Shown in pieces: positions 21,779 to 54,457 of a DNA stretch of 64,000 bases (the first letter of the stretch is position 1; each line of letters starts with the position of its first letter). Made by a program: the position numbers and the translations under genes. Source of the DNA: Thelephora terrestris (Eukaryota > Basidiomycota > Agaricomycetes > Thelephorales > Thelephoraceae). The notes under the pieces are model-generated. The model searched no databases. It was not told where the DNA came from and saw only the letters and a list, made by a program, of their open reading frames with translations. The DNA lies in assembly GCA_015956445.1 (NCBI GenBank), contig WIUZ02000022.1:496001-560000 (forward strand). Reading direction: 5' to 3'.

Positions 21779-21798
21779 TGTCAGGGTTGTAGGCCTGC

Positions 21799-22422
21799 TT
21801 ACTGTTTGTGGGGCGCTAGAGGATTAGCAGATGGATGGGGGGTGTCGGGTCTGGTTTTGAAGGGGGTTCCGGGCGTAGAGATGAGAAGTGGAGGAATATC
21901 AAGAGAGAGAGGTGACTCTGTCTGATATGGGTGGACGGGCGAGTGATAGTCTTGGCAGAACTGATTGAGTTGCTGCACAAACGGTTCAAAGTCTTGATCG
22001 CTAAGACGTTCGAAATTGACGAGATATTCTATAACCGAATAAGGTAATTCAGTTGGAACTTCCCACCAGAGGACGATGATAGCAGGGGAGTGGGTGTGGA
22101 TGTTTGTGGTCAGATGAACACGCGGAGAGGGGAAATAAAAGGCTGGACTGATACTGAAGTAAACGGTAGCAAGGACGCTCTCCGTAAGATCCGAATTCCA
22201 GAGGAATTGGTGATCTGCTCCTAAGAGAAAAGGAGGAGTGGTGACTCCGGCGTCAAGAGCGGCAAAGGGTCGATAATAAGGGAAATGGGTGAGTAAACCG
22301 GCTGTTCGGTTTACTTGGAGACTCCTGATGAGTTTATACTCCCAGATAGATCTCCTGGCGTCAGGGACGTTTGGTCGTTGGACTGGACTAGTAGAGGGGA
22401 AAGGGTTTGGGGGACTGAACAT
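21799..22422 (-). CDS. Unknown protein b of the TGTCA unit (copy 1)
   Basis: 207 aa, starting MFSPPNPFPSTSPVQRPNV. It has a central block with YKLIRSLQVNR, FPYYRPFAALDAG, LLGADHQFLWNSDLTESVLA and IIVLWWEVPTELPYSVIEYL, and a Ser/Pro/Thr-rich tail. The equivalent frame in copy 2 is the same length, with only scattered, mostly conservative differences. A TATA-like GGGTATATAAGG (minus strand) lies upstream, followed by a 5' UTR intron candidate. I do not recognise the family. No signal peptide or membrane segment is obvious. Confidence 0.6.
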   Translation of the reverse strand: MFSPPNPFPSTSPVQRPNVPDARRSIWEYKLIRSLQVNRTAGLLTHFPYYRPFAALDAGVTTPPFLLGADHQFLWNSDLTESVLATVYFSISPAFYFPSPRVHLTTNIHTHSPAIIVLWWEVPTELPYSVIEYLVNFERLSDQDFEPFVQQLNQFCQDYHSPVHPYQTESPLSLDIPPLLISTPGTPFKTRPDTPHPSANPLAPHKQ

Positions 22423-23077
22423 ACACTGGCAGGAGAATTCCTGCTTGAATGAGTTAGAGAAGGTAAGACGTGAGGAGAATTCCTCAGCTTACTTTGTTTA
22501 TTCAAGTTGTGGGTAGAGGAGTACAGAAGAGATTGAGAATGGGGAAAAGAAGGAGCAACCGCTCTTCCTTATATACCCAATCCTCTACAGGAGTCATTAT
22601 TCTACAACGAGTCAAACAGGAGTAAACATGGTCTGTGCGTAGTTTAGGGTAGGGTAGGTGAGTCAGAATGAGGGGACTTAGAACGACGGATGGTAATTAC
22701 AAATACGGGAACAGTAGAGGTGCGAGTCGGTGGAAGCATTCGGGGATTTCTCGTGTTTCATGGGAGTAATAGAAGCGTGGTGGGGATTTCCCATGATCGA
22801 TGGGGATTTCTCTGGATCGTTGGTAGTAGTAGAAGCGTGGCGGGGATTTCTCATGATCGGTGGGGATTTCTCAGGGTTTGATGGGTCGCGATCGGGGTTG
22901 AGGGTTCGTTTATCCTAATGAGGACGTTAATGAATAATAGGTTATTGTTTTTCCCCTTTTGGTTTTCTTTAAGTCAGGATGTATTTAAGTCAGGGGGATT
23001 AATGATCGTTTCCCCCATCGTCTCTTTTCCACTCCCACCAAACACCAGTACCACTTCTTCCATCATCCACTACTACT

Positions 23078-23975
23078 ATGTCTGTTGCCAACAACGCCGT
23101 GCTCAATGCTGCCGCCACCCCTTTCACCTCGTCCTTCGAGACGACTGCTCCCTACGACGTGGAGCAGCATCTGTATGACTCCCCCGCCAACATCGCCCAT
23201 GACAACCAGGTTGCCATTAATTTCCTCACCGCCCACAACGCCCCCGCCGAGTTTTGGGAACAGGCTGGTTACGAAGACCCCAGGCTTTCTGGGCCTGTGG
23301 TTCGGGCTCAACACCCGGGAGCCGTCCTTTTGTTGGACGCCATGGAGAGGGAGAGGGAGGATCGGATTGCGAAATTGGAGAAGCGGGTGGACCTCATGTA
23401 CGTCATCATGAACAGTTTAAATGATGACTTCTCTCACTTTGCTTTGGAACATTGGGGACCCTTCCAGGCATCTCTCTTCCGATATTTTGGACACCAGTGT
23501 CACGGGGCTTATTGCACCGACCCCCCTTGCAAGTCCCCAGTCATCCCTTCGCCACCGCCAGGATCAGGGCGTTCCTCTCCCTCCATCCCCTCCCTGGAGT
23601 CCTGCCCCAGTTCGCCAGATGGTGGAGAGGTCCCAGAAGAAGAAGAACCGCAAGAATCCGATGACTCGTTCTGGTCAACGCTGTCGTCCCTCCGACAAGT
23701 CACGTCAAGTTCGGATGAAGTTGAAGGTGGAGGTGGCGGGTCTCCAAGACCGCTATGGGTTCGCCTTAGTGAGCGCAGCCTTGTCGGACGTGAAGCGGGA
23801 GATGCATGATAGCCTATATCATGATGTGTTGGGGTGTAGGGAGTGCTGGCAGGATCCGGTAACGCGAGCGTGGTCTTATTGTCCTGAGAGTGTTCACAAC
23901 CCTCACCACTTCGCTCATCGTTGCCCTCTTCCTCAGCACTGTTCATGTGATGTTGACCCGTTTGTTCTTGTCTGA
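23078..23975 (+). CDS. Unknown protein a of the TGTCA unit (copy 1)
   Basis: Two exons, 23078-23708 and 23770-23975 (61-bp intron), giving 278 aa. It begins MSVANNAVLNAAATPFTSSF. A coiled-coil-like stretch MEREREDRIAKLEKRVDLMY follows, then an HCHGAYCTDPPC cysteine/histidine cluster and an acidic Ser-rich linker. The C-terminal domain, reached only after splicing, has GCRECW...WSYCPESV..PHHFAHRCP and reads like a zinc-binding fold. The donor here is GTTCGG; copy 2 has the better GTGAGG at the same place. Function unknown. Confidence 0.55.
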
Positions 23976-24080
23976 GTGCGTAGTTCTTCTTAACTACTCT
24001 TGTACTATTATTACTGCGAATGAGACCAATGTCTTTGATTACTTGTGAGATTTTGGCTAATATGTCACGCGTTCGTGACA

Positions 24081-24845
24081 AAGGGCCTTACTAGCGTGTG
24101 AAAGATTGCACAAAAGATAACGAATGTCCGCATGAAACATAGGGGTAAAGATAACACTAGTCCTAAAAGAAATAGGGGCATGGGTCATGAAAGTTCGTAC
24201 CTGGATCTAGACCACACCCAAGGGTCAGGTGAGCACCGTCTCGTGGCTTCTGCGATTGGCCAAAGATAACGAAGAACTCTACACATCCCTTGTTGTCGGT
24301 AGGTGGTATGATACCAACGGACAGGCAGTAACCTGGGAGTTGCAGCTGTAATCGCTTGATCAGACCCAGTCTTGATTAGGCATAGCACCTGGGAATATTG
24401 TTCTTCCTAAGTGGCACCAGGGATTATATTCTTCGGCCGCCGTTCTCGGCTTGGGCCTACTCTGCTTCCAAAGCACAACTAGATCAGATAGGGTTACTAT
24501 CCGATTAGAAGCACAGTGTCCAAATGTTGATACCCCGTGCCCACATGTGTGTTCCAGGGTCCAGGGTTGATCGTAATCGTAAAGTCATGAGGGGTTGTAA
24601 AAAGGGGTTCGTGATGTCATGAAGGGGTCATCAGGGTCTTGAGACCTATTTTTAGTGCGCGCGCGTTCTAGGCGTTCCGGAACGAAGTTCTTCCAAGGCC
24701 GTCCCGCAGGCTGAGGTGTCAGCTTGATGTAGTAAGCCGACGATGATGGTACAGGGGCGGAAGTTGATGTGACCCGGACCAATGAGGTTCGTCAAGGTAG
24801 GTCACGTGAAGGATCACCGATCTAGGCTATAAGAAGGACATCTTC
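24081..24845. other. Unassigned region upstream of P1
   Basis: About 765 bp between the TGTCA unit and gene P1. No conserved frame was recognised. The last 70 bp include GGCTATAAGAAGG (24834-24840 region), a plausible TATA box for P1. Confidence 0.4.
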
Positions 24846-26890
24846 TTGGAGCCATCCTTGATCAGCAACACCAGCAACTTCCCCATCATCTTACCACAAC
24901 ATGTCCTTCCCCAACAACCAACCTACAAAGTTGCCAACGGCATCTCCACCATTTCCCGTATTGACCGTCGTGCCGCCACTCGCAAGACCTATGCCTGTGC
25001 GGCAGGGACTCCCTATACCACTGATGACCAGGTATGGGGGAGACCTAGAGCTTCGTGTGTTCGCACTAATGCCTTCCTCTAGGTAGAGGCACGTTCTTTT
25101 GGCGTTGATGTCAAGCTAACGGCTTCTAGATCTTGGAGGTCGTCACGGAAGTGGACGCCGAACGTCTCAGGGAGACGATCCCTCATTTGATGGGGTTAAC
25201 CTGGGACGACGAGCTCTGGGTTCGTACGATTATCACCGAGAAGGTGGCCTTCCAGATGAGGGGTAGGTTCGGGGAGTTGGAGCATCCGATCAAGAAGGAG
25301 CTCTGGTACACCCTGCAGAGGGGAATCTACGATCAGGACCTATTGGAGCACGGAGCGACCGTTCCTCGGGCTGTCTGCCATGCTACCGCTTCCACTAGTC
25401 TCTTGTGGTCGCTCGTTCGGGAAGGAGAAAGCCGGGTAGGTTTTCTGTCTGAATATTCGAGTATGACTCTCGACTAATCAGACTGCCTAGGTTGAACGAT
25501 TGGAGCGCGAAGTGAAGGAGGCGAAGGCAGACGTCCTTCGCCTGTCAGCGGAGGGACTTCAGATGAAGGAGACCTTGGCAGCCTTTCAACAGGGAACGAA
25601 CGAGGCGTTGGAGGCAATGGTCGCCAATCATCAGGAGTTGATCGCCGGGCTGAAGGTTTGAGACAACAACATTAAGGGGGCGTTGGCCAGGAGGGATGAA
25701 AAGGTGCTTTCAGCCTTTGCAGGTTTATGCAATGACTGAGAGACTTCCTTTAGACTGAAGAACTCGAGAACGTGGTGGCCGTATTGACAGCGCAGGTCGA
25801 GTCCTTACAGGACAAGACCTGCAACTGTAAAGAGGGTCCCAAATTGGTTGGTCAGGGGACAGCCGATGTTCCATTCGAGTTGGAGTCACTGGGGGCAGGG
25901 GTTGGTTTACTGAGTTGGTAAACTGTGAGTAAATCACAAGTAAATGGAAAAAGAACCTAGCAAAATACTTGCCTGGCAAGCACAAAGCAAATTCACAATT
26001 TACTGAGCCAATTTACCTGCAATTTACTGGGTTCAGTATGTGCTCAGTATGTTTACAGTTTACTGGGTCATGTGACCACAGTTTCCCTGTTCGGTAAACC
26101 TCGGAAAAATTCACGATTTACTGAATAAATTTACCTGCAATTTACTGAGCCACTTGCCCAATCAGTATGTTTTCAATTTGCTGAGTGGTTTGATCACAGT
26201 TTACTGGACTCAGTAAACTGGAAAAAAACCAAACTGGTTTACTGACAAGTCCCTGATTGGTCAATTTTAAAAATAACCGAAAATTTACCTGGACGTGTCA
26301 TTGTCAGTAAACTGCAAGTTTTCTTTCAGTAAATTGGAAATACACGTCAGGTAAACTGGGAAAACACGTGACAATTTGATTATGGTTTACTGGACTCAGT
26401 AAATCACAAAAAAGCCTAACCGGTTTACTGACGATGCACCTGATTGGCTAATTTGAAAAAAACTCGAAAATTTACCAGGACGTGTCTTTATTACTAAACT
26501 GCAAGTTCTCTTTCAGTAAATCGCAAGTACACGTAAAGTAAACCAGAAAACACGTGTAAACTGTAAGTAAATTCAAAGTTTACGTGTTTTCTGGTTTACT
26601 TTACGTGTACTTGTGATTTACTGAAAGAGAACTTGCAGTTTAGTAATAAAGACACGTCCTGGTAAATTTTCGAGTTTTTTTCAAATTAGCCAATCAGGTG
26701 CATCGTCAGTAAACCGGTTAGGCTTTTTTGTGATTTACTGAGTCCAGTAAACCATAATCAAATCGTCACGTGTTTTCCCAGTTTATGTCACGAACGCGTG
26801 ACATAGTAGCCAAGATCTCGCAACTAATTCAAGACATTGGTCTCATTCGCAGTAATAAAAGTACAAAGGTGACAAAAAAGAACTACAAAC

Positions 26891-27794
26891 TCAGACAAGA
26901 ACAAACGGGTCGATATCACATAAACAATTCTGAGGAAGAGGGCAGCGATGAGCAAAGTGATGAGGGTTATAAACACTCTCAGGACAGTACGACCACTCTC
27001 GCGTCACCGGATCCTGCCAACACTCTCTACACCCCAACACATCATAAGATAAACTCTCATACATCTCCCGCTTCACGTCCGACAAGGCTGCGCTCACTAA
27101 GGAGAACCCATAGCGGTCTTGGAGACCCGCCACTTCCACCTTCAACTTCATCCTCACCTGACGTGACTTGTCGGAGGGACGACAACGTTGACCAGAATGA
27201 GTCATCGGACTCTTGCGGGTCTTCTTCTTCTGGGACCTCTCCACCATCTGGCGAACTGGGGCAGGACTCCAGGGAGGGGATGGAGGGAGAGGAACGCCCT
27301 GATCCTGGCGGTGGCGAAGGGATGACTGGGGACTTGCAAGGGGGGTCGGTGCAATAAGTTCCGTGACATTGGTGTCCGAAATATCGGAAGAGAGATGCCT
27401 GGAAGGGTCCCCAATGTTCCAAAGCAAAGTGAGAGAAGTCATCATTTAAACTGTTCATGATGACGTACATAAGGTCCACACGCTTCTCCAACTTCGCAAT
27501 CCTATCCTCCCGCTCCCTCTCCATGGCATCTAACAAACGAACGGCCCCAGGGTGAGCAGCTTGAACACGAGGCCCAGAAAGCCTGGGATCCTCGTAACCA
27601 GCCTGTTCCCAGAACTCGGCGGGGGCGTTATGAGCGGTGAGGAAGTTAACGGCAACCTGGTTGTCGTGAGCGATGTTGGCAGGGGAGTCATACAAGTGTT
27701 GCTCCATGTCGTAGGGAGCATCCGTCTCGAAGGACGGGGTGAAGGGGGTGGCGGCAGCGTTGAGCACGACGTTGTTGGCAACGAAGGAAGACAT
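26891..27794 (-). CDS. Unknown protein a of the TGTCA unit (copy 2)
   Basis: Exons 27158-27794 and 26891-27096, with a 61-bp intron (GTGAGG donor, CTTAG acceptor), give 280 aa. Domains in order: an N-terminal block with YDMEQHLYDSPANIAHDNQV and AEFWEQAGYEDPRL, a short coiled coil (EDRIAKLEKRVDLMYVIMN), a GHQCHGTYCTDPPC cluster, a Ser/Pro/Glu linker, then a C-terminal Cys/His block (GCRECW, YCPESV, HHFAHRCP, CLCD). Copy 1 keeps this frame, splice position and cysteines. That points to past selection on the protein. Likely DNA or metal binding by inference only. Confidence 0.62.
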
Positions 27795-27989
27795 GGTAGT
27801 ACTGGATATTTGGGAGAAGGTGGTACTGGTGTTTGGTGGGAGTGGAAAAGAGACGATGAGGGGAACGATCATTAATCCCCCTGACTTAAATACACCCTGA
27901 CTCAAAAGGGAACCGAAAAGGGAAAACAATAACCTATTATCCATTAAAGTCCCAATTAGGACAAACGAGCCCTCAGTCCCAATCGCGAT

Positions 27990-28330
27990 CCCATCAAAAC
28001 CAAGAAATCCCCACCGATCATGAGAAATCCCCATCAGCCTTCTATTACCACCATGAAACGAGAGAAATCCCCATCGATCATAGGAAATCCCCATCAGTCT
28101 TCTACTACTACCATGAAACACAAGAAATCCCCACTTCGCTTCTAAAGAATCATTCGCTATTGTTCCCCTAGCTCATATCATCATTCGTCGCTCTAAGTTC
28201 CACTTCCCCGACTCATCTACCCTACCCTAAACTACGCACAGACCATGTTGACTCCTGCTTGACTCGTTGTAGAATACTGACTCCTGTAGAGAATCGGGTA
28301 TATAAGGAAGAGCGTTCGCTCCTTCTTTTC
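27990..28330. promoter_or_regulatory. Divergent promoter region of the TGTCA unit with repeated GAAATCCCC boxes
   Basis: Between the two gene starts, GAAATCCCC (reverse GGGGATTTC) occurs five times within about 130 bp (28003-28134), interleaved with CATCAG and ACCATGAAAC repeats. A TATA-like GGGTATATAAGG lies at about 28308-28319, driving protein b. The first exon is followed by an apparent 5' UTR intron (GTAAGC at about 28379 to CATTTCAG at about 28429). Copy 1 retains the same boxes at 22740-22870. Confidence 0.55.
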
Positions 28331-28449
28331 CCCATTCTCAATCTCTTCTGTACTCCTCTATCCACAACCTGAATAAAAGTAAGCTGAGGAATTCTCCTCA
28401 CGCCTTACCCCTTTCTAACTCATTTCAGCAGGAATCTTCCTGCTAGTGT

Positions 28450-29073
28450 ATGTTCAGTGCTCCTAACCCCTTCCCCTCTACAAGCCCTGTTCAGCGACCA
28501 GTCATCCCTGACGCTAGGAGATCTATCTGGGAGTATAAACTCATCAGAAGTCTTCAAGTAAACCGAACCAACGGTTTACTCACCCATTTCCCTTACTACC
28601 GCCCCTTTGCAGCTCTCGACGCCGGAGTCACTACTCCCCCTTTTCTCCTAGGAGCCGATCATCAATTCCTTTGGAATTCAGATCTTACTGAAAGTGTCCT
28701 TGCCACCGTCTACTTCAGTATCAGTCCAGCCTTTTACTTTCCCTCCCCACGAGTTCATCTCACCACTAACATCCATACTCATTCTCCTGCTATCATCGTT
28801 CTTTGGTGGGAAATCCCAACTGAATTACCTTATTCTGTTATAGAATATCTCGTCAGCTTCGAACGCCTTAGCGACCAAGACTTCGAACCCTTCGTGCAGC
28901 AACTCAACCAGTTCTGCCAAGACTACCACTCACCCGTACACCCTTATCAGACAGAGTCTCCTCTCTCCCTTGATATCCCTCCTCCTCTCATCTCCACGCC
29001 CGGAACCCCCTTCAAAACCAGACCCGACACCCCCCATCCATCCGCTAATCCTCTGGCGCCCCACAAACAGTAA
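28450..29073 (+). CDS. Unknown protein b of the TGTCA unit (copy 2)
   Basis: 207 aa beginning MFSAPNPFPSTSPVQRPVIP. It is co-linear with copy 1 over its whole length, and most differences are single conservative changes (for example WEI/WEV, VSF/VNF). It is compact with aromatic-rich strands (FPYYRPFAALDAG, VYFSISPAFYFPSP, IIVLWWE) and a Pro/Ser tail. The stop lies 17 bp from the unit's right end. No family recognised; no catalytic motif claimed. Confidence 0.65.
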   Translation: MFSAPNPFPSTSPVQRPVIPDARRSIWEYKLIRSLQVNRTNGLLTHFPYYRPFAALDAGVTTPPFLLGADHQFLWNSDLTESVLATVYFSISPAFYFPSPRVHLTTNIHTHSPAIIVLWWEIPTELPYSVIEYLVSFERLSDQDFEPFVQQLNQFCQDYHSPVHPYQTESPLSLDIPPPLISTPGTPFKTRPDTPHPSANPLAPHKQ

Positions 29074-30180
29074 GCAGGCCTACAACCCTGACAGTTTACC
29101 TGACATGTATTTCCAATTTACTGAAAGAAAACTTGCAGTTTACTGACAATGACACGTCCAGGTAAATTTTCGGTTATTTTTAAAATTGACCAATCAGGGA
29201 CTTGTCAGTAAACCAGTTTGGTTTTTTTCCAGTTTACTGAGTCCAGTAAACTGTGATCAAACCACTCAGCAAATTGAAAACATACTGATTGGGCAAGTGG
29301 CTCAGTAAATTGCAGGTAAATTTATTCAGTAAATCGTGAATTTTTCCGAGGTTTACCGAACAGGGAAACTGTGGTCACATGACCCAGTAAACTGTAAACA
29401 TACTGAGCACATACTGAACCCAGTAAATTGCAGGTAAATTGGCTCAGTAAATTGTGAATTTGCTTTGTGCTTGCCAGGCAAGTATTTTGCTAGGTTCTTT
29501 TTCCATTTGCTTGTGATTTACTCACACTTTACTGACTCAGTAAACCAACCCCTGCCCCCAGTGAGTACGCCGACGAGGTGGTACTCCCATCTCCTAACCC
29601 GTCGTCCTATGCGACGCCTCCGATCGAGAACTCGGTTCCCGTTCCGACTCCGGGTCCGGCTTCAACTTTGGCCGCTTCCAACAAGGAGAACTGTGGGCGC
29701 TGCATCTTGCAGCCAATCCATCAGTTGGTGAAGATCGAGGATGAGGTCATGGAGGTTGACCGAGCCGAAGATGCTCCGAGGGTCGCCGAGGTACGTCCGG
29801 TGACTAAGGGGCAACGATGCAAACACTCTCGACGCCGTCCTGCCCATTGTATGACCGCGTCGGCTAATCCTTACCCTCGACCAGTTGAGTCGGATGGTGA
29901 CCAGTCTGGTCGAGGTGAGGAGCGAGGATTCTGATATCGGGTCCACCGTCCTTACCGACAGGTCGAGTCCGAGATCCAACTCCGACACCAGCTTCGCCTC
30001 GCATGGCAGGATCCCACCCAGGGGTCTGATGAGGGAGACAGAGGGTCGCTCGCCGACTACGTCGATAGTGCTGTCGAGCAGCCACCCGGTGATGGCGATG
30101 TGGGACCAGGTGTTCCAGAGTTCGGTGACATCTGGGAGGCTGATCGGTCCGCTCGAAGGCATCTCTTCCTATCGGCTTGA

Positions 30181-30374
30181 ACTAATCGTTCAGCTGAGTG
30201 CCGAAGATGGTGACGCCATGTTCGGGGAGGTCCTTGCGAGGAGGGGCCAGCACTACGATCTCTGGGATGGACAGTTGATGACCTTTAGGCCTGCCGTAGA
30301 TAGAGTTGATTTCTGATGGGATGATGATAGCACTTTGTATAGCTCGTTGTGGATTCACTGGGAATAGTACGCGC
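30181..30374. other. P1 3' flank, target site of E4
   Basis: Short stretch after the P1 stop, ending in GTACGCGC. The flank resumes after E4 at 41639 as GCGCGTGTTTTTG. It is probably the P1 3' UTR or terminator region; nothing else is seen. Confidence 0.5.
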
Positions 30375-30378
30375 GCGC

Positions 30379-31499
30379 TGTCGCGACGTCGAAACTCTCA
30401 ATCTCCGATTCCTTCCTATTGGTCGTTCGACTCCATTGAGTTCCGGACTCTTCTTGGCCTCGCGACTGCCTCGAGGCAACCTTCACCCTGATCACCGGAC
30501 CGCCTCTATTGTTTCTCGAACGTTCTTCCCCGCTTCGCGTCCCCTCTCGGGAACCCTGTTTCGAATCCTCGCGTCCTGCCATCTGCCACCCGCCACTCGA
30601 CCTTCCGGAACTCTGATATCCCCGACGCCTCGTTCCCCTCGCCTTTCATCCTCGTTTCAACTCTCGTTCTAGCCCTTCGCCATCGCCATCTATCGTTATC
30701 AATTCCTCCCGCCATCGATCTCCGGTTATCCCATCGTTCTGTGCTCTCGTCCCCGCGAATCCTTATCGATCGGAACTTCCCGGTCGATTGATCAGTTCCA
30801 TTCCCCGCACCGTTCCGTTCTCCGGGCATTTGCCTCCATTGCTATCTTCCGCTCTCGATTTCTGTTCCCCTGCATTTTCTCCTGTATGACGCGGCTTCCT
30901 CTCGTGCCGTCGTCACCCCTTCGTCATCGTCCCTGTAGTTACTCAGCCTTCGTCGTCGTTTCCCCCCCCTAGTAGTTACCCCTCTTACCAAGTTCCTCTT
31001 AGTTTCGCTTTTCCGTTCCCCTTCTCTCTCACGGACTATCTCGACACTGCTTATTTAGGAGATTCTTCGGTTTCCTTTATATACTGTGTCTTAGATAGCC
31101 TGGAATGCATCGACTCAGATCCCCCAGTTCAGTTTCAGTCCGAGTTCTCCAGTTCTCTGGTTCGCTCTCCAGTTCTCAAGTCAAGTTCTCGGCTTCTCTG
31201 TGTCTCTTCTCTTGCTCCCACCAAAAGCCTGCCTCAGCTACTTTACGATTTCGCGGTGATTCTCTATCGCAACTCTCAGCAACCTCGGTTCCTATCCCCC
31301 TCTGCTTTGTCTCGAATCTCGCGCTTTACTCTAGTCGTCGCGGTCTTCCCCGGCGATTCTCCAGACATCTTCGGGCATCTCTGAACAGCTCTTCTGTTCC
31401 GGTGGTCGTACAGAACTCAACACTCAACCGGTACCCACCTCAACTGCTTGTACACTTTTTTTTAGGGTATCCGACTACCCGGAGTGTTCAGTAAGTTCA
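30379..31499 (+). repeat. E4 5' LTR
   Basis: Begins TGTCGCGACGTCGAAAC and ends GTAAGTTCA. A TATA-like CTTTATATACTG sits near 31074-31085. Short open frames inside it (for example 31105-31494) occur identically in the 3' LTR and have no recognised product. Confidence 0.92.
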
Positions 31500-31501
31500 C
31501 C

Positions 31502-31520
31502 TGGAACCCACGCCGGGACC
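31502..31520 (+). promoter_or_regulatory. Primer-binding-site candidate of E4
   Basis: TGGAACCCACGCCGGGACC starts two bases after the LTR. The same 19-mer follows the LTRs of E3 and E5. Its complement would fit a tRNA 3' end: CCCGG T-stem strand, seven acceptor bases, discriminator, CCA. The tRNA identity is not determined. Confidence 0.65.
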
Positions 31521-31921
31521 GGTAACGTTGTGTTCTCCGAATTTCCACCATTCCTACCACTCGAGCTGAAGCTCGAGATCTTGCCGAACTTCGAGCTACT
31601 TTTGCAGAGATCCACCAGACCTTCCGCACTCTTCAGCGGATTGAGAGAGTCGTTTTATCCTACCCACCCACCCGCGAACACAGCCTGGAGGAGGATTATC
31701 TTTCTTCTTTATCTTCTTTAACTCCTTCCCCAGAGCCTGCTTCGCAACGCTATCTTCACTACTCTCCTTCTTTGAATCATATCTGGTCTTCTTCGCAACT
31801 CTCTTCGCAACTCTCTGGATCTCCTGCTCGCTCTTCTACTTCTTCTCCGCCGCGGCCTTCTTCGCCGTTTTCCGATACTTCGCAACCCCCTTTTTCCCTT
31901 TTACCTTCGATTTCTTCTCCA

Positions 31922-34087
31922 ATGCCTGACGGTTCCTCCTCCGGTGGTAATGATCACTACATGCCACTATCGCATACCAAAAGTGCCCCAGTCTTTTCCC
32001 GCGCATCAGCTCCGGCTTTCAAAGAGTTCTTCAGGAGCGTTGCCGCACTTGGAAAGCGCTGTGGTTTAGAGGACGCTGAAATGATCGATTGGGCTATTCG
32101 GTATGCCGGAGATGCCGGGGACGGTTGGGAATTCCTACCGTGCATGGCTGGCAACCCCACCTTCGACGAGTTCGAGCTCGCGGTTCGCAAGGGATATCCT
32201 GCCCTTGACGATGCACGCCGCTACACCCATAACGAACTTACTAGACTCGTCGAACGGACTCAGAAGTCTGCAGATATGACGCGCGAAGACGTTGGAGATT
32301 ACTATCGAGAGTTCCTTGCAATCTCCCAGTACTTGATCTCCAAAGGTCGGCTATCCACGCGGGAACAGGGAGCATCTTACCTTAGAGGTTTCCCGCAACC
32401 GCTTCGCGCTTCTATCCGTCGCCGCCTTGCCGCCAAGGATCTTGACGCACTTCCGGAGGATGGTTACAAGTTTGCAGCGATTCACGAAGCCGCTCTCTAT
32501 GTTCTGTCTGCTGAGATAGACGATGACATCGTTTCCGCCCCTCGCGATGTCACCCAGCCACAGGGTATAGATGATTTGCTCAAACTTGTAACCAACCTCA
32601 CGAATTTGGTCGCTTCGAACATCCAATCGCAGCAGCAACCTCAGAACACCTCACAGCCCCAGGCACCCCCAGTCACTCAGTACCCTCGCGCTCCTCTCCC
32701 AGCTCCGGGAGGAGCAGTTCCAAACGTTCCCCAGTGGAACCCCCCGCGAGTGCCTGAAGGGAACGACTGTATGTTCTGCAGTGCCAAGGACCATTACGTG
32801 CGAGTGTGTCCCGTTGTCGAAGAATACCTTCGATTGGGGAAAGTCGTCCGCAACCAACAAGGGCGGCTTACTCTCCCCAACGGAAGGTATCCCCCCCGCA
32901 ATACCCCCGGTCGCAACATGCGCGAACGGGTGGACAACTGCGCGACAACCGGACAACAGGACTTCAACGCCGTTTCCGCGAACTACCTAGAAGGTCCGAA
33001 CGAGTACGTGTTCGAGTTCGACCTCTCTCCCGACGACCCAGCGCAGCCTACCGAAGAAGATGAGATCAACGAGCGGTTCAATATCATGAAAGCCGAGCTT
33101 GAGTCTCTTCGGGAAGCCCAAGTCCTAGCTACGCAGCAGGGTCGCCGAGAAAAGTTCGACGGAGTCGAAGTCCCCCAGAGAAAGACTGGTCCCCCTCCCC
33201 GCAAGAATCCTCCTGTTCCCCAGCCTAACGTTCACGGCCAGCGAGATCCATTTAAACCAATCAACAAAGATCCACCTCCTCATCTCGCCGGGAAACCAGG
33301 AGCTCTTGCGGGAACTTCCCAGAATCGCCCACAAGGTCCAATTAAGCCTATCGCTATGCAGCCCAAGCCATCCGCCGACGAATCTAGAACTCGCTACCAC
33401 GCCGCTATCGAGGACTCAGCCAAAGCCTCCGACATTCTCGAACGAGTTCTCGATATAAAGATTCCGGTATCTGCTCGCGAAATCCTCGCCGTCTCCAACG
33501 ATGCCCGGAGACAGGTGAAGGACCTTGTAACCTCTAAAAAGGTTTCGGCGAATCTACTGGAAGCAGGGACCACTGATTCTACTTATAGGATCGCGGAAAC
33601 TTCCCCATTCGACGTCTATGAGTACTCGTCTCCATCTGCCGCTCCGTTCCTCCCGCTACGAGTGATCACTCTCAACCTCGCTCCAGGAGTGACACCCGAG
33701 TGTATCCTCGACGGAGGATCGCAGATTGTGGTCATGAGACGCGACGTCTGGGAGAAGCTCCACGTACCTATCACGGCGGACAGAGCTATGAAGATGGAGT
33801 CGGCGAACTCCGGGACGACTCTCACTCTCGGAGAAATCGAGAACTTCCCCGTGAAGATTGGACCAGTTACCGTCCATCTTCAGATCCAAGTCGTCCCTTC
33901 AGCTCCATTCGAAGTCCTTCTCGGAAGGCCCTTTTTCGATGTCCTCAACTGCACTGAATACAGCCGAGCCGGCGGTGTTCACGAGATCGAAATAAAGGAC
34001 CCCGAGACAGGAACTCCATATGTGTTCGCCACGCAGCCGCGCCAGCATAAGAACTCTAAGGGATCTGCGGTAAATTTTCGTATGTAG
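31922..34087 (+). CDS. gag: E4 Gag with C-terminal retropepsin-like domain
   Basis: 721 aa. The chosen ATG is the first in the frame and gives exactly the length of the E3 Gag. N-terminal capsid-like block (KEFFRSVAALGKRCGLEDAE, YLISKGRLSTREQGASYLRG). CCHC zinc knuckle CMFCSAKDHYVRVC at residues about 283-296. Pro-rich linker. The aspartic protease-like segment ECILDGGSQIVVM is near residue 597. Most retropepsins, and E3 here, have D-S/T-G, whereas E4 reads D-G-G. The frame ends at TAG 34085-34087, just after the slippery AAATTTT (34072-34078). Confidence 0.9.
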   Translation: MPDGSSSGGNDHYMPLSHTKSAPVFSRASAPAFKEFFRSVAALGKRCGLEDAEMIDWAIRYAGDAGDGWEFLPCMAGNPTFDEFELAVRKGYPALDDARRYTHNELTRLVERTQKSADMTREDVGDYYREFLAISQYLISKGRLSTREQGASYLRGFPQPLRASIRRRLAAKDLDALPEDGYKFAAIHEAALYVLSAEIDDDIVSAPRDVTQPQGIDDLLKLVTNLTNLVASNIQSQQQPQNTSQPQAPPVTQYPRAPLPAPGGAVPNVPQWNPPRVPEGNDCMFCSAKDHYVRVCPVVEEYLRLGKVVRNQQGRLTLPNGRYPPRNTPGRNMRERVDNCATTGQQDFNAVSANYLEGPNEYVFEFDLSPDDPAQPTEEDEINERFNIMKAELESLREAQVLATQQGRREKFDGVEVPQRKTGPPPRKNPPVPQPNVHGQRDPFKPINKDPPPHLAGKPGALAGTSQNRPQGPIKPIAMQPKPSADESRTRYHAAIEDSAKASDILERVLDIKIPVSAREILAVSNDARRQVKDLVTSKKVSANLLEAGTTDSTYRIAETSPFDVYEYSSPSAAPFLPLRVITLNLAPGVTPECILDGGSQIVVMRRDVWEKLHVPITADRAMKMESANSGTTLTLGEIENFPVKIGPVTVHLQIQVVPSAPFEVLLGRPFFDVLNCTEYSRAGGVHEIEIKDPETGTPYVFATQPRQHKNSKGSAVNFRM

Positions 34088-34140
34088 ACGGTCCTTCGAG
34101 AGAGATGTCCTCCTCTCGGCAACGTTTCCACCCCCGGGAA
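33990..34140 (+). promoter_or_regulatory. -1 ribosomal frameshift site (E4 gag-pol)
   Basis: In the Gag frame the sequence reads GTA AAT TTT CGT ATG TAG, containing the heptamer A_AAT_TTT at 34072-34078 (X_XXY_YYZ). The pol frame is -1 relative to gag and is open from that point into MSSSRQRF. A short stem CGAGAG/CTCTCG lies about 18 nt downstream. The same heptamer sits at the same place in E3. Confidence 0.75.
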
Positions 34141-37100
34141 ACGTTCGCCCTCGTCGAAGTTCCGTCGCGATTACCCAGTTCTCTTAGAGCCACTTCTGGT
34201 TCATCTGCACCCCCTTCACTTTCGTCGTCTTTCCCCCAGTTCGATTCTCCCCTTTCCCCTTCGTCGCCTGTGACTCGTTTTGAATCTATTGCTCCTTCTT
34301 CTTCATTGTGGACCATTGCTTCTTCTTCTTCCTCGATTTCTCCCTCCTCGTCTGCGAATGTCCTTTCCCCGGCGGAACTACCGCTACCTGTTTCTGCCTC
34401 CATTTTCTGGGACAATAGTGAGTCCCTTCTCGAGCCTACTGTACTTCCCGATAATGCATCTATTTTGAGCTCGTATTCCCCCGTTCCCTCTGCAAGTTCC
34501 TCTGAAACTCGGCATGTATTTTCACCTTCGCATGTATCCTCTTGCTTTTCTCTCCACTCACCTCAACCTGTATCTTCTCCTTCGCATGTGCCGATCTTCG
34601 TTTCTCCGGATTCCTCTCTCCACCCCTCCCCTCTTGTATCTTCTCCTTCTCGTGTCCCGACTTTGATTCCTTCTCTCTCTCTTTCTCCGCATGTATCTTC
34701 ATCTTCGCATGTTCTGTTTCCTTTCGATTCTTCACTTCGTTCGCCTCCTGCCAGCGTTCTCCACACCTTCTTCCAGTCCCTATCCTCCTTGGATCGTCGG
34801 ACCGCCTACTCCTCCTTCGCTACCCTTCGCAACGCTATTCCTCCTTCACCCACCAATCCCTACACTCCCATCCAGCTTGCAAGCCTCTGGATCTCCGAGC
34901 AGTTCACGGAGAATCCTTTTATCGAGCTGGAACGGGATGGTGTGGCTTTCCTCTACAAGAAGGTGGCGAACAAAACTAGGCCGGTCGCGACAACTCTTCC
35001 GGAGAATTTCCGAATTATTCGCCATGAGCATCCTGACCCTCTCGCTGGACTACTAGATCTTCCGGTCCGCCCTCCTGACTTCCGCCCTACCGGGAGGTTC
35101 ACTAGCGAGAGACGGGACAAGATGGCTATCGGAAAGGACTTACTTTGGCCCGAGGAAATCAAGCTTGCCGAGTGGATCGTGTCCAAGCACGATTCAGCCT
35201 TTGCCTGGACAGACGACGAACGAGGATCTTTTGACCCCCAGTACTTTGCCCCCATCGAGATTCCGCATATCTCCCATATCCCTTGGGTACTTAAGCAAGG
35301 TCCGATCCCTCGCGGCATCCTTCGAGAAGTCATAAAAATCATTGAGGACAAGTGGCGGTCTGGAGTGTACGAACCCTCTTCTTCATCGTACAACAGCCGC
35401 TGGTTCTGTGTCTTCAAGAAGGATGGCAAGTCTCTTCGTCTGGTTCACTCGCTCGAGCCGTTGAACGCCGTTACCGTTCGCAACGCCGCGATGCCTCCCT
35501 ATACTGAGGTAGTCGCCGAGGACTTTGCTGGAAGATCGATCTACACCACTCTAGATCTCTATGTGTCTTTCGACCAGCGACAGTTACACGAGAAGTCCCG
35601 CGACATGACGACGTTTAACACTCCTCTCGGCTCCTTCAGGCTTACGGTTCTCCCTATGGGATGGACTAACTCACCCGCAGTTCTCCAAGGTGACATCACG
35701 CACATTCTTCGCCCTGAGATTCCACATTGGACTCAGCCCTTCGCCGACGATGTTCCGATTAAAGGCCCCAAGACTCGCTACGAGTTCCCCGACGGATCCT
35801 TCGAGACGATTGACGGAAACTCCGGTATCCGTCGATTCGTCTGGGAACATCTTGAGGCCGTTAATCGAATCATCCACCGCGTTCAGTCCTACGGCGCCAC
35901 CTTCAGCGGAAAGAAAGCATTCATTGGCGTTCCGCAGGCTGACATCGTCGGACATGTGTGCACCTACGAAGGAAGAATTGCGGATCCTTCTCGAGTTCAG
36001 GCACTTCAGGACTGGCCTATCCCGAAGAACGTCTCCGAGGTTCGTGCGTTCCTAGGAACGTGCGGAGTCTTGCGAATCTTCATTAAGGGATATACGCTCA
36101 TCGCACGGCCGCTGATTCAGCTGACTCGAAAGGACGTCCCCTTTGAGATAGGTCCCCAGCAGTTAGAGGCTTTCGAGAGACTGAAGCTAGCTGTGCTCAG
36201 TTCTCCGGCTCTACTTCCCATCGAGTATGAGTGCGATCGTCCCGTTATCTTAGCGGTCGACTCGTGCGCGAATGGAGTAGGGTATATCCTCTTTCAGCTC
36301 GGTGACAACGGAAAGCGGTATCCCAGCAGGTTTGGCTCTATCACCTTCAACGATCGTGAATCCCGCTACTCCCAGGCGAAGCTCGAGTTGTATGGCCTCT
36401 TTCGAGCCCTTCGCCACACTCAGCTATTCACGATTGGTGTTCGGAAGCTAGTCGTCGAGATGGATGCCAAGTACATCAAAGGCATGATTAATAGCCCTAC
36501 TCTCCACCCCAACGACGCTATCAACCGCTGGATCGCTGCTATCCTCCTCTTTGACTTCGAACTCGTTCACGTCCCCGCAGAGAGACACACTGGAGCTGAC
36601 GGACTCTCCCGACGCCCCCGAGCTTCAGTAGATCCTCCTCGCGACGACAGTGAAGAGCTCGAAGATTGGATTGATGAGAACGCTGGCTTTTTCATTGGAC
36701 TCCATTCCCCCTTTTCTTCTACTGACCCTTTGCTTCCTCTCATTCGTTCTCATGTGGCGAAAAAGCATGTATTTTCCTTCGGCTCTCCTTCGGTTTCTTC
36801 CTCCTCTGTTTTCTCCTCTTCTTCCGTTTCTCCTCCTCCTCCGCCCCCTCTTTCCCCGGAGATTCCCAGATCTCCAAAGGCTATCCTTCGCGACAAGAAG
36901 ACTTCCCTCATTCGGCAGTTCCTCGCCAATCCCCAGCGTCCTCCAGCCCTCTCTGATGAGCAGTACCGGCTCTTCATTCGACAGGCTACGGAGTTCTTCT
37001 TGTTCAAAGGAAGTCTCTATCGGAAGAATAAGACCGGTATTCCCCAGCTCGTCCCCGAGCCCGACGATCGTCTTGAGCTCATTCGCTACGCTCACGATGT

Positions 37101-38277
37101 TATGGGACACAAGGGAATCTTCGCCACTACCCAGTCCCTTCTTGTCCGGTTCTGGTGGCCCGAGCTAGCCAAGGACGTCAAGTGGTATGTTAGGACTTGT
37201 CACGAGTGCCAAGTACGCCAGACCAAGTACTTCCACATACCACCGGTCGTTCCTACGGTTCCCTCCTTGTTCCGAAAGGCTCACATGGACACTTTCCTCA
37301 TGCCTCGCGTTGGGAGTTACCGCTATGTTCTTCATGCCCGATGCGCGATGAGCTCTTGGCCAGAAGGACGAGCCGTTACCGCTGAGTCCCATCGGACTAT
37401 CGCCACCTTTATCTTCCAGGACATCCTCTGTCGCTGGGGAGGTCTTGCCGAGATCGTTACCGATAACGCCGCTCCTTACATCGCCGCTGTGGACCTTCTC
37501 GGCGAACAGTACGGTATCCACCACATCAGGATCTCTGGCTACAACTCTCAGGCGAACGGCATCGTTGAGTCTAAGCACTTCGACGTTCGCGAGGCGATTA
37601 TGAAGACTTGCGGAGGCAACGAGTCAAAATGGCGGGAAGTCCTTCCCCAAGTTTTCTGGGCTGAACGAGTTACTATCCGGAAGTCTACTGGATATTCCCC
37701 CTACTTCCTCGCTCACGGAGTTCACCCCCTCCTTCCCTTCGATATCCTCGAGTCCACGTTCCTAGCACCCAAGCAGGATTTCGGAATCTCCACCGAGGAA
37801 CTAGTAGCGCTCCGAGCGAGGCAATTGGCGAAACGGCCTGAGGATCTAGAAGAAATGAGATCAAAGGTCACGAAGTCGCGACAACGGAACATCGAGCAGT
37901 TTGAGAAGCAGCACGGCTCTCGGATCATCGACTTTGACTTCAAGTCTGGAGCCCTTGTTCTAGTTCGCAATACCCGCATTGAGGAGTCCCTCAATCGGAA
38001 GACCAAGCCCCGCTATCTGGGACCCATGGTAGTCGTTCGCAAGACTACCGGGAAGTCCTACATTGTCGCAGAACTTGACGGCGCTCAGTCCGAGCTGCGA
38101 GTGGCTGGTTTCCGTTTGGTTCCCTACTTTCCCCGGTCGTCTACGGAGATCCCCATCGTTTCAGACGTTCCCGAGGAAGAGGACTCGACGTGGGAAGATC
38201 CCGAGGACACTCGGTTCTTTTCCTCTCTGCCTGTTGACGATAGGCGTTATATTTCTTCTTCTCCTCCTCTGCTATGA
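34079..38277 (+). CDS. pol: E4 Pol: reverse transcriptase, RNase H, integrase
   Basis: Continues from the frameshift; the first in-frame ATG is 34105, from which 1390 residues run to TGA 38277. A Ser/Pro-rich spacer of about 230 residues precedes the RT. The RT active site is FADD (about residues 546-549), replacing the usual Y-x-D-D. RNase H begins near [17 protein letters not shown]. The integrase has an HHCC zinc finger (HDVMGHKG, CHECQ), then the catalytic triad D1062 (HMDTFLMP), D1120 (VTDNAAPY) and E1155 (GIVESKHF). A GPY/F-like C-terminal module follows ([13 protein letters not shown]). No stop or frameshift interrupts it. It is made as Gag-Pol by inference. Confidence 0.93.
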
Positions 38278-38631
38278 TTTTGTTTCCAGCTTATGACCCC
38301 TTCCACGACCCGTTACGATCTTTCATGACCTTCCCATCCTTCATTCTACGAATCTCCACGCATTTCTTTTTTTTATTTCTCCAAGCTCCTTTTGCCCCCC
38401 CACGAAACCCAAGCCTATCATCATCATTGCATTACCTCAATTCTCTTTCTTCGAAAAAGTTCCTTTTAGTTCCTATCGTTTTCTTTCACCCTTTTCCTCG
38501 AATCCCAGATCCTATCCTTCCCATCCCCCCTACCAGTTTATGTTCCGCAACGAGTTCCCCAAGTTTCTTCACCAAGTTTCCAGTTCCGCTGTTCAATTTT
38601 CCACTTCTTTGCAACGTCCCGCTTCGTTTCT

Positions 38632-38645
38632 AAAGTCCCGAGGAG
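38632..38645 (+). promoter_or_regulatory. First copy of polypurine-like tract in E4
   Basis: AAAGTCCCGAGGAG, identical to the tract just before the 3' LTR (40503-40516). In E3 the corresponding motif AAGTCCCAAGGAG is also duplicated, but only about 45 bp apart. Confidence 0.6.
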
Positions 38646-38852
38646 CTTCCCTCTTTGCTTCCACAAGTTTTCACCACGGACTCTTTTCTTAGATACTTTT
38701 CATCTTCATTCCTCATTCCTTCCCTTCGCGAGAACCAAGAAAACGTTGTCACATTCAAAACGCACGTCGGTGACAAAGTGTGGACACGGCAAAACTAGCA
38801 AATACGGAAAAAGAAAGGAAGAGTTACCGAGGGCCTCCAGCCAGATGGTCCT

Positions 38853-40451
38853 TCACTTCCCCTCGGCCTCCTCCGGCTTCTTCTCCTCCCTCGAAACCGC
38901 TCTCCTCTTCCCCTCCTTCTTCGACATCGCAAACTCGTCTTCGGACTCAGAGGACGAAGGAACCTCGGATCGCGCTGGAGTACCCGGATCTTCGACGATC
39001 TTCTCCAGGTCCTCGGCCATGTTCTCTCCCGCCTGAGGACTGACAACTCGAGGCTGCGACGGCCCCGCGACTGGCGAACTATCAACGGACATGGCACTGT
39101 TTCCAAGCAAGCGAGCCTGGAACTTCCGATCAATGTCCTCCCAGGCACTCTTTCGCAAATCTAGTCGCATCCTCCGGGAATCCTCGGCGAGGCGAGCACC
39201 TAGAAAGTCCGCGTACCATTCCCGGATCGTCATCCTCGGGAGCTCCAGATTGTCGACGATGTCATCGAACATCTGAAGGGACTCTAGCCCCCCCCGACCG
39301 GCACCCGGCTCGGTCTCTTGCACCTCCACGTTGCTCCCTTCGGAGAAGGCCTTCTTTATCGGCGTCGCGGCAGCCTTCCTCTTCGCCTCAACGGCTTTCT
39401 TCCTCCTCCCGATCCCCCCTAGGCTCTCCATGACCGACGGTGGATGAAGCATGGTGAAATCATCCGTAAATGAGCACCGGCACTTGTTCTTCATGCAGTA
39501 TTCGCACCAGACGGTGACGTAGGCAAGATAGTACTTCCTCCAGAGCGGAACGCACTTCTTCTTCCTCGACTGGCACTCTCGGCAGGACTATTCCGTTCTC
39601 CAATCAGTTCCTGACCCCTCTCGGCCCTCGCAAATCGATGCTCACCGTCGGGAAAAGCTTTTTCGTCTCCGGTGACAGCCTGGAGTCCTCAAGTACTTTC
39701 ATCTCGCTCATATCCTTCGCAATCACCTTCTTCTCCCTCTCCTGCTTCGCCGGAGTCTCCTTTTTCATTTCCCTCTTTACCTTCTTCTGCCCTTTTCCCC
39801 GGAGACTGCGCAACTTCGGCGTTGGAGGACTCCCCTGAGTCTCCTTCCATTCCTCGTCCATGGCTTCCGTTTCCTCGCCCCGAGTAGTGGTGGTCGGCGA
39901 GTCTGGAGTTACCTCTTTCCTCTTCGGGATGCGCTGCACTGGAGAAGGAGGTACGAGAACATACGGAAGCTTCGCTCTCGGCGAAGGTCTCCCCGTCTTT
40001 GGAGTCTTCAGCACCTTCACTTCCGTCGATGGAAGCCCCTCCCCGCTGATGAGGTTCCGTTGAACCACGTGCCGCAGGTACTCTACAACTGGGCCGTACG
40101 GCTGCACTCCCGCTTCCCGGCACACTTCATAGTGCCTCACCTGGGTTTCTTCATTAGTAGGAAGCTCTCGCGCGAAGGTATCTCTAGGAGAAAACTCACT
40201 ATCCAAGCCTTTACGAGAACGGTCCACGTTCTATCCCCGGTACCTAGTTCCTCGAAAGTACTCAACCTCCACACCTCGCGGACAGATTCCCAGATCCCCT
40301 TAGTCGACGGATACGCAACCTTCACCTCTTCAAAAGTCCACGGAGAGTCGTTCTCGATAGATGGGAACAATCCTCCCTTACGATCAATCGCGTCAAGGGG
40401 ACCGAACGGAGGAAGAGGGTTCCCCTTAGCGTCAGATGGGAACCAGGTCAT
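38853..40451 (-). CDS. Antisense accessory gene of E4 encoding a Zn2Cys6-like protein
   Basis: Three exons, 40200-40451, 39646-40140 and 38853-39587, give 493 aa. Introns of 59 bp (GTGAGT donor, CTACTAAT branch, CAG) and 58 bp (GTGAGC, TAG) are both phase 0, and removing them fuses three open frames. The N-terminal block starts MTWFPSDAKGNPLPPFGPL and reads WTFEEVKVAYPSTKGIWESV. A basic, Lys/Pro-rich linker follows. Cysteines at about 251, 254, 261, 277, 280 and 287 are spaced C-x2-C-x6-C-x15-C-x2-C-x6-C, starting CRECQSRKKKC, as in fungal binuclear zinc cluster DNA-binding domains but with a long loop. The tail is acidic and Ser-rich. The start is 67 bp from the 3' LTR, so that LTR probably supplies antisense promoter activity. 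Cargo or regulator; function unknown. Confidence 0.72.
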
Positions 40452-40480
40452 AGAGAACGAAGGAAAGGTTAGCGAGTTGG

Positions 40481-40517
40481 CAACCGAGGACGGTTGATTT
40501 TTAAAGTCCCGAGGAGA
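40481..40517 (+). promoter_or_regulatory. Conserved hairpin plus second polypurine tract before the E4 3' LTR
   Basis: The inverted repeat CAACCGAGGACGGTTG (40481-40496) is followed by AAAGTCCCGAGGAGA ending at the LTR border. E3 has the identical 16-bp hairpin (46402-46417, minus strand) at the same distance. The polypurine end should prime plus-strand synthesis. Confidence 0.7.
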
Positions 40518-41638
40518 TGTCGCGACGTCGAAACTCTCAATCTCCGATTCCTTCCTATTGGTCGTTCGACTCCATTGAGTTCCGGACTCTTCTTGGCCTC
40601 GCGACTGCCTCGAGGCAACCTTCACCCTGATCACCGGACCGCCTCTATTGTTTCTCGAACGTTCTTCCCCGCTTCGCGTCCCCTCTCGGGAACCCTGTTT
40701 CGAATCCTCGCGTCCTGCCATCTGCCACCCGCCACTCGACCTTCCGGAACTCTGATATCCCCGACGCCTCGTTCCCCTCGCCTTTCATCCTCGTTTCAAC
40801 TCTCGTTCTAGCCCTTCGCCATCGCCATCTATCGTTATCAATTCCTCCCGCCATCGATCTCCGGTTATCCCATCGTTCTGTGCTCTCGTCCCCGCGAATC
40901 CTTATCGATCGGAACTTCCCGGTCGATTGATCAGTTCCATTCCCCGCACCGTTCCGTTCTCCGGGCATTTGCCTCCATTGCTATCTTCCGCTCTCGATTT
41001 CTGTTCCCCTGCATTTTCTCCTGTATGACGCGGCTTCCTCTCGTGCCGTCGTCACCCCTTCGTCATCGTCCCTGTAGTTACTCAGCCTTCGTCGTCGTTT
41101 CCCCCCCCTAGTAGTTACCCCTCTTACCAAGTTCCTCTTAGTTTCGCTTTTCCGTTCCCCTTCTCTCTCACGGACTATCTCGACACTGCTTATTTAGGAG
41201 ATTCTTCGGTTTCCTTTATATACTGTGTCTTAGATAGCCTGGAATGCATCGACTCAGATCCCCCAGTTCAGTTTCAGTCCGAGTTCTCCAGTTCTCTGGT
41301 TCGCTCTCCAGTTCTCAAGTCAAGTTCTCGGCTTCTCTGTGTCTCTTCTCTTGCTCCCACCAAAAGCCTGCCTCAGCTACTTTACGATTTCGCGGTGATT
41401 CTCTATCGCAACTCTCAGCAACCTCGGTTCCTATCCCCCTCTGCTTTGTCTCGAATCTCGCGCTTTACTCTAGTCGTCGCGGTCTTCCCCGGCGATTCTC
41501 CAGACATCTTCGGGCATCTCTGAACAGCTCTTCTGTTCCGGTGGTCGTACAGAACTCAACACTCAACCGGTACCCACCTCAACTGCTTGTACACTTTTTT
41601 TTAGGGTATCCGACTACCCGGAGTGTTCAGTAAGTTCA
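40518..41638 (+). repeat. E4 3' LTR
   Basis: 1121 bp, the same length as the 5' LTR and identical in every stretch I compared, followed by the GCGC duplication. Confidence 0.92.
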
Positions 41639-43413: not shown

Positions 43414-43560
43414 ACGTGCCGCTAGATCCACTCGAGGTTTACCAGGACTTGAGCTTCTCCTCAGAGGCTCACTCCCCATTCCATCGCCTGGCCGCTCGTC
43501 TCCTCTCGGTCTCTGCAAACTCTGCCACATGTGAATGTCTTTTTAGTGTCAGCGTGCTGA
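43414..43560 (+). pseudogene. hAT transposase C-terminal remnant
   Basis: The frame reads DPLEVYQDLSFSSEAHSPFH, then ARLLSVSANSATCECLFSV. This resembles the hAT dimerisation region, where S-x-x-S-x-x-E-R-x-F-S is usual. Here the ER is replaced by EC. Only this fragment is left. Confidence 0.6.
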
Positions 43561-45356: not shown

Positions 45357-45696
45357 TGAACTAGCCACAAAGCCTTCGGAGTCCGAGAGGGCAGAGATGG
45401 CAGTTAGAAGGTCGGGTCCTCGGTTCAGAGGCGCGAGCCTCTAGGGAATCTGCGGGAAGCGAATGAAAGGGGAGAGAGAAAGTCGGGAAGAGAACGGGAG
45501 AACGAGGCAGAGGACGACGGGAAAGCCAGAGAACGAAACTACCGATAACCAACAAAGGGGAACGTCGGGATACGTCGGGACAACAGAGTCAGAAATCGGG
45601 ACGCCAGCGGGACACAAGAGACCAGAGGGACAACGAGAACGAGGGCGAGACGACGAGGGAACCGAAGGGAGGACCGTAGCAACGCTGCTAGGCCTC

Positions 45697-45730
<34 letters not shown>

Positions 45731-46380: not shown

Positions 46381-46450
46381 TCTCCTTGGGACTTCAGAGA
46401 GCAACCGTCCTCGGTTGTCTTGAGGCGCAAGAGGAGTCTCCTTGGGACTT
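46381..46450 (-). promoter_or_regulatory. Duplicated polypurine tract and hairpin of E3
   Basis: Read on the minus strand: AAGTCCCAAGGAG (46438-46450), then the hairpin CAACCGAGGACGGTTG (46402-46417), then AAGTCCCAAGGAGA (46381-46394) against the LTR. The arrangement equals that of E4 without the 1.8-kb antisense gene. Confidence 0.7.
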
Positions 46451-46772
46451 CTGATAGAAACTCGGGAGGCCGAGAGAAAGGGATAGTGAGAAAGGGGGAA
46501 AAGTCGGGATAGAGAAAGTGTGGAACAAGAGGAAATCTAACTAGAAGAGGTGCTTTGTGGATATAGAAAGTGTCCGATAGTAAAGTCCAAATGAAAGAGT
46601 AAAGTCGTGTAGATAGGAAGAGTGAACGAATAAATGGAGCAAGAAACAATGAGGGATAGTCCGTGGTCAGGAACAATATGGGCGGGACGTAGAAGTGGAT
46701 GATATAAAGGCATAGCAGTGAGTCGGGAGGGATGGAAGGGGAATAGCGTAACATAGGGATGGGATGTGATAA

Positions 46773-54081: not shown

Positions 54082-54083
54082 GA

Positions 54084-54423: not shown

Positions 54424-54457
<34 letters not shown>

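Follow-up and report, generated by a model that had tools for sequence, protein, structure and literature searches.

The analysed stretch of the Thelephora terrestris genome (64,000 nucleotides, contig WIUZ02000022.1, positions 496,001 to 560,000; C15:496001-560000 of the 40.6-Mb, 60-contig genome), referred to as the window, contains a mobile unit of 2308 bp, termed U, which occupies positions 26786-29093 of the forward strand, has the ends TGTCACGAACGCGTGACA...CAACCCTGACA and carries two protein genes. We consider U, with a probability of roughly two in three, as a solo long terminal repeat (LTR), or an LTR-derived single unit, of Ty3/Gypsy chromoviruses whose long LTRs harbour genes. This interpretation is best supported because two families of the same genome, V and Y, which share similar ends, 5-bp target site duplications and an antisense gene, are LTRs of chromoviruses. 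The ends, the duplication length, the size and the possession of an antisense gene group U with V and Y. The provirus to which U belongs as LTR may be rare or already lost, or U may be a unit with a single LTR that is mobilized in trans.

The related families emerged when the fetched loci and the window were screened for C[CT]TGACA right ends whose 5-bp flank recurs ahead of TGTN[AG]. The 135 right ends tested gave 46 pairs, several of them chance-like, and revealed beyond U the families V (3.3 kb, three insertions), W (2.4 kb), X (2.35 kb, one insertion) and Y (2.9 kb), all with TG...CCTGACA ends and 5-bp duplications. Common to U, V and Y are TGTCA...CCCTGACA ends, 5-bp duplications and a size of 2-3 kb. 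The LTR nature of V and Y was deduced from their junctions. On C1, a chromodomain match (550380-550529) is located 189 bases upstream of a V left end, the interval containing a purine tract; GGAAGAGGATAA directly precedes this left end and GAGTAACAAAACTACCAGCCGGTACCTTGTTCACC follows the V right end. On C5, TTATATCAAAGATACCAGCCAGTACCCTGTTCACC follows the Y right end with the spacing seen in the V leader of C1, and the two leaders match. Direct pairs of Y, 8.8 kb apart, were found on C5 and C23, each enclosing an integrase (rve) match, and on C23 an open pol piece of 890 amino acids with reverse transcriptase, RNase H, H2C2, SH3_Tf2-1 and Chromo matches (rve being below the cut-off) precedes a purine tract and then the Y left end. 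We therefore identify V and Y as Ty3/Gypsy chromovirus LTRs, since at these junctions the LTR start follows a purine tract and the LTR end is succeeded by a common internal leader. The 19 chromodomain matches comprise eight of V class, three of Y class and eight others; the count of eight V-class proviruses rests on C1, where the junctions were read, and for the others on an equal chromodomain score or on the 1322-, 1367- or 1113-amino-acid class. Two V-class chromodomains on the same strand of C23 (1038434-1038583 and 1047744-1047893) are 9310 bases apart and possibly belong to a tandem LTR-internal-LTR-internal-LTR array.

Protein genes are also present within these LTRs. The antisense gene products of V and Y resemble each other (tblastx 4e-13 to 8e-13), one weak stretch is common to V and W (tblastx 4e-5 to 6e-5), and two V exons show ratios of nonsynonymous to synonymous polymorphism (pN/pS) of 0.12 and 0.07 among five copies. 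A Pfam search with seven exon pieces of V, W, X and Y gave no enzyme, only below-cut-off rows of coiled-coil or other types for X, V exon 3 and Y; the W product looks coiled-coil-like by eye. V and W have 415 and 222 left ends in the genome (controls 0), which together with those of U amount to 937 left ends per 40.6 Mb. For Y, at least 40 matches with at least 90% identity cover 1804-1810 of the 1810 query bases (among the best 40 of 255 candidates), while X is represented by three near-complete matches and many pieces. Copies of U, V and W were found nested within one another.

The mobility of U is documented by its boundaries. TGTCA...TGACA forms the ends of the units, and the window copy is flanked by the target site duplication GTTTA on both sides (26781-26785 and 29094-29098). 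When its flanks are joined via one GTTTA, they match 26551-26157 over 395 of 395 bases, ungapped and with 99.2% identity; this empty site is the other arm of a foldback repeat which holds the unit. A second alignment of the joined flanks, with 42566-42983, is gapped and 90% identical. The original prediction of two U copies in the window, of precise ends, of the GTTTA duplication and of an empty site was thereby borne out, except that the unit ends at 29093 rather than 29090. The other copy (21779-24080, minus strand) is 88.4% identical and has no target site duplication but rearranged flanks (CCCTT and CTCCT), with Gypsy gag-like sequence on one side and a V-family unit on the other. The proposed genome-wide copy search, allowing up to three mismatches, detected 300 left and 321 right ends, compared to 3 and 0 for reversed-pattern controls, and a DNA search with the unit gave at least 54 matches, at least 37 of them full-query with 86-100% identity (among the best 40 of 399 candidates). 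In an alignment of 22 complete copies, from which interrupted, cut and one mirrored copy were excluded, all 22 have TG...CA ends and 19 a perfect 5-bp target duplication of varied sequence; further 5-bp duplications exist among interrupted copies. The window unit is 99.3% identical to a copy on C59 and therefore moved recently. Precise ends, 5-bp duplications and an empty site make it hardly credible that U is a host gene pair spread through segmental duplication, even if the selection on its genes and one mirrored pair of copies in locus L026 could be quoted in favour. The left end (26786-26803) contains an inverted repeat of its own, TGTCACG...CGTGACA, none being seen at the right end. Insertions of U into U near unit positions 576 and 1554 were observed in L027 (1898-8845) and on C60 (G000:C60:470984-475510), and the older copy on C60 is likewise interrupted near unit position 576.

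Gene 2, on the sense strand (28450-29073), is a single open frame of 207 amino acids plus stop without known domain; its counterpart in the other window copy (21802-22422, minus strand) also encodes 207 amino acids. This frame is open in all 22 aligned copies. The suggested comparison of dN/dS (nonsynonymous to synonymous substitution rates) between copies yielded a median of 0.066 with a range of 0.021-0.128 (171 pairs, 19 copies). Changes restricted to single copies comprise 61 synonymous and 52 nonsynonymous ones (per-site ratio 0.28), and none of the approximately nine nonsense changes predicted under neutral decay from the private synonymous changes was seen. In tblastn searches of the fetched loci and the window, two stops were found in L036 and an early end in L040; an old partial copy in L013 is open across the 207 positions with one gap, and the match to another in L010 ends at residue 117 without a stop. 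A Pfam search gave no match for the window copy, a PDB profile search one chance-level row (E 0.29), and none of the 33 viral and 69 GTDB stretches fitting a peptide pattern was confirmed as a relative. Upstream of the gene, string matches indicate a candidate TATA-like box (28299-28304, plus strand; unit position 1514) and a candidate AATAAA signal (28372-28377, plus strand; unit position 1587); V has neither string on the corresponding strand.

Gene 1 is encoded on the minus strand in two parts in different frames. The first part (27344-27794, frame A, about 150 amino acids) appears helical and coiled-coil-like with a Cys/His stretch, and the second part (26891-27313, frame B, about 140 amino acids plus stop) has a Cys/His-rich C-terminus. 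Among 13 copies, frame A is constrained up to about minus-strand position 1750 (pN/pS 0.17 and 0.15 in windows 1675-1749) and frame B from about 1765 onwards (0.17-0.45 in most windows), with about 0.6 in either frame and no preference in windows 1825-1899. The pooled ratio of the whole open frame A reaches 0.42 because its tail is non-coding; the same frame in the other window copy (23078-23806, plus strand) probably ends in a non-coding tail as well. This switch of constraint implies either a frameshift or a short intron. The original prediction of a spliced antisense gene thus stands with respect to the change of frame, and splicing is likely, but no conserved GT-AG pair was visible by eye at this place in the copy alignment. 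The stretch CCCCTCCCTGGAGTCCTG at about minus-strand 1813-1832 (window about 27262-27281) is near-invariant even in copies of about 71% identity and possibly reflects dual coding or an RNA signal.

Both genes are open in both window copies as originally claimed, in agreement with tblastn. Stops in the first part of gene 1 were confined to one match (the nested copy in L033) and those in the second part to two among the listed matches (L020 and the nested L033 copy), and some other copies are cut by insertions or locus ends. In eight diverged copies of about 71-80% nucleotide identity (L029, L030, L032, the outer copy of L033, and L035-L038) the gene 1 parts are stop-free throughout. The gene 2 frame has remained open in L037 and L038 and, with an altered end, in L030; insertions interrupt it in L029, L032 and L033, it is broken in L036, and none was found in L035. 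Decayed frames elsewhere, named beforehand as the finding that would speak against the unit, are thus largely absent, stops in the fetched loci being confined to L036 for gene 2 and to L020 and the nested L033 copy for gene 1. No significant Pfam match was obtained for gene 1. Structure prediction of the two proteins, also called for at the outset, gave fold models of low confidence; that of the gene 1 first part is helical, and its product may be regarded as coiled-coil-like on the basis of this model and visual inspection.

U could alternatively be an independent DNA transposon whose transposase escaped recognition or is provided by a Ginger-like element, i.e. one derived from a Gypsy integrase. 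Its TGTNR-type ends and 4-5-bp duplications fit Ginger2/TDD elements as described in the excerpts of the literature on which this and the later comparisons are based (PMC2836005), and 19 of the 22 copies are single units with a target duplication. However, Ginger1 and Ginger2, despite this likeness in ends and duplications, encode a transposase resembling the Gypsy integrase and end in inverted repeats of 40-270 bp (PMC2836005); neither feature was seen in U. Its two ends have only TGTCA in common and form no long terminal inverted repeat; no transposase domain, including an integrase-like one, was found in either protein, as had been anticipated, although no search was aimed at a separate autonomous Ginger partner. 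Among the listed ends (100 of the 300 left and 100 of the 321 right ones), 51 of the 100 left ends pair with a right end, 30 over spans of 2225-2377 bp and 21 over longer ones. The larger autonomous relatives that were to be looked for did not appear in the nine of these 21 long spans examined (eight complete and C6:148897 within L027; C4:68508-82450 is among the 12 not read whole), all nine containing nested insertions of V, W, U, foldback or other repeats. Moreover, V and Y, which have like ends, are LTRs. A DNA transposon was dropped as first choice after the direct Y pairs with integrase in between and the V and Y junctions had been recognized, and we now regard it as quite improbable. Cryptococcus transposons (PMC12810828) and IS481EU (PMC10045372) were also considered, and their excerpted descriptions did not match U. 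With respect to the three options originally proposed, a long solo LTR carrying genes has therefore gained support via V and Y, and a new DNA transposon type has become less likely. That the unit might prove to be the LTR of a known retrotransposon, regarded in advance as an objection, holds for V and Y but not directly for U.

The search for a corresponding provirus and the further observations below weigh against the assignment of U as an LTR. No U provirus was confirmed among the listed ends, by the integrase and chromodomain matches or by purine and leader searches. When the integrase matches (17 contigs) were set against the listed ends, none was enclosed by U left ends. Two V-class matches have a U right end on either side, one on C1, where V junctions were read, and one on C11, which was not read. 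On C4, a V-class pol lies between a U left end (68508) and a U right end (82450) that are 13,943 bases apart. The mismatch-free places in this span, which was not read, include no inner U ends; the span may represent a U unit that received a V provirus, or else a provirus ending in U whose inner ends are altered. A purine run before a U left end was found at nine places, one of them exact, which is near the chance estimate of about 0.2-0.6 exact and 2-5 one-mismatch places (for a pool of 100 to 300 left ends with at most one mismatch). The CCAGCC leader motif follows a U right end at one place (C58:1850584, minus strand), with a gap of 18 instead of 14, and the reversed control also gave one. 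Neighbouring listed ends within 15 kb have the same orientation in 12 cases and the opposite one in 19, for left and right ends alike. About six U proviruses would be expected at the V rate (8 per 415 left ends), provided that U loses internal regions at this rate. Finally, gene 1 of U and the antisense gene of V and Y have no detectable similarity (hhalign probability 0.2%).

These data would be accommodated if U and W were non-autonomous single-LTR units which have lost their provirus and are inserted in trans by the integrase of V or Y chromoviruses, the two proteins of U assisting in the production or protection of the linear DNA. No provirus was confirmed for the 300 U and 222 W left ends (W being checked via chromodomain matches only), the ends of U and W resemble those of V and Y, and the U genes are selected though no pol is linked to them in the copies read. 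However, we know of no route to linear single-LTR DNA, and proviruses may have been missed, since only one third of the U ends was available for comparison and reading did not extend to the C4 span. We consider this scenario as rather unlikely.

Consistent with the favoured reading of U as a solo LTR, we propose the following scenario. A chromoviral integrase would insert the TG...CA-ended DNA and duplicate 5 bp of the target; the ends and duplications are observed, whereas the enzyme is deduced. In the provirus, a sense promoter (TATA, unit position 1514) would direct the synthesis of the genomic RNA, in which the gene 2 frame would be close to the 5' end and precede the leader and gag-pol, and a divergent antisense promoter would give rise to the gene 1 mRNA. 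Recombination between the LTRs might then remove the inside and leave behind one LTR with its duplication, and selection in replicating lineages would keep the genes intact. The combination of a sense gene in one frame and an antisense gene with a change of frame fits a passage via the sense RNA but does not prove it. The U proteins probably serve the element; for the gene 1 product, a nucleic-acid-binding regulator is our guess.

The surroundings of U in the window include similar and other repeats. Part of a V-family unit (24077-25886, minus strand, its antisense gene reading on the plus strand) adjoins the U copy at 21779-24080 and continues past the foldback repeat at 29563-30375 (minus strand). 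A Y-family LTR on the plus strand, identified by the end screen, was interrupted by a Gypsy element into a left part (43547-45356, supported by Y matches) and a right part (55108-56235), which ends with GTGGCCCTGACA and, as seen at the junction, has the target duplication TTTAG. The two Gypsy elements at 30379-41638 and 45357-55107 have LTRs of 100% and 99.9% identity and apparently 4-bp duplications. U as the LTR of these nested elements was rejected, since their LTRs, TGTCGCGAC or TGTCGTGAC...GTTCA, differ in their ends and the duplications are apparently of 4 bp. For Copia ends, the LTR in L041 is cut by the locus end and no LTR pair was present in L042. Foldback (palindromic) repeats were observed in the window at 25886-26785 plus 29094-29563, inside which the U copy at 26786-29093 sits, and at 41839-43255, as well as in L026 and L040 (176-4273); those of the window are rich in GTTTACTG. 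In L026, two U copies are mirrored across the two foldback arms and have identical flanks.

LTRs are normally regulatory DNA, and solo LTRs are usually counted as dead scars. Protein genes located in, or read antisense from, a retroviral LTR are represented by sag of mouse mammary tumour virus and HBZ of human T-cell leukaemia virus type 1; these belong, however, to animal retroviruses and encode unrelated proteins. Ty3/Gypsy chromoviruses like V and Y are described, in excerpt, with reverse transcriptase, RNase H, integrase, chromodomain and TG...CA LTRs (PMC2864245). SM-Tcn1 of spikemoss has a 5-bp target duplication, a TATA box in the LTR and, according to a figure legend, an additional open reading frame (ORF) of unknown function, but its LTRs measure 440 bp compared to the units of 2.3-3.3 kb with protein genes inside found here (PMC2864245). 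Rice Retrosat2, a plant element, has LTRs of more than 3.2 kb and carries an additional ORF, ORF0, whose function is not known (PMC3485330). Additional antisense ORFs without assigned function, kept in many copies, are reported for maize Grande, rice RIRE2 and Botrytis Boty (brtn), and an SMC domain for the antisense gene of PvRetro13 (PMC7264820, PMC8365987); a regulatory role is suspected for such genes (PMC7264820). In those elements the antisense ORF is reported to lie between pol and the 3' LTR, whereas here the antisense gene lies inside the LTR, so that it survives in solo LTRs. A literature search limited to titles and abstract openings gave nothing on genes inside fungal LTRs.

Selected genes inside LTRs are a new variation on a known element type. 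Both the LTR family V, for which five copies were compared, and the LTR-like U contain protein genes under strong purifying selection, and solo LTRs can thus keep a complete gene set. Annotation could easily misfile such units as genes of unknown function or as unknown DNA transposons. U and V offer a route to asking whether retrotransposition depends on antisense proteins encoded in LTRs, and U in particular to asking whether an LTR can keep spreading without a provirus.

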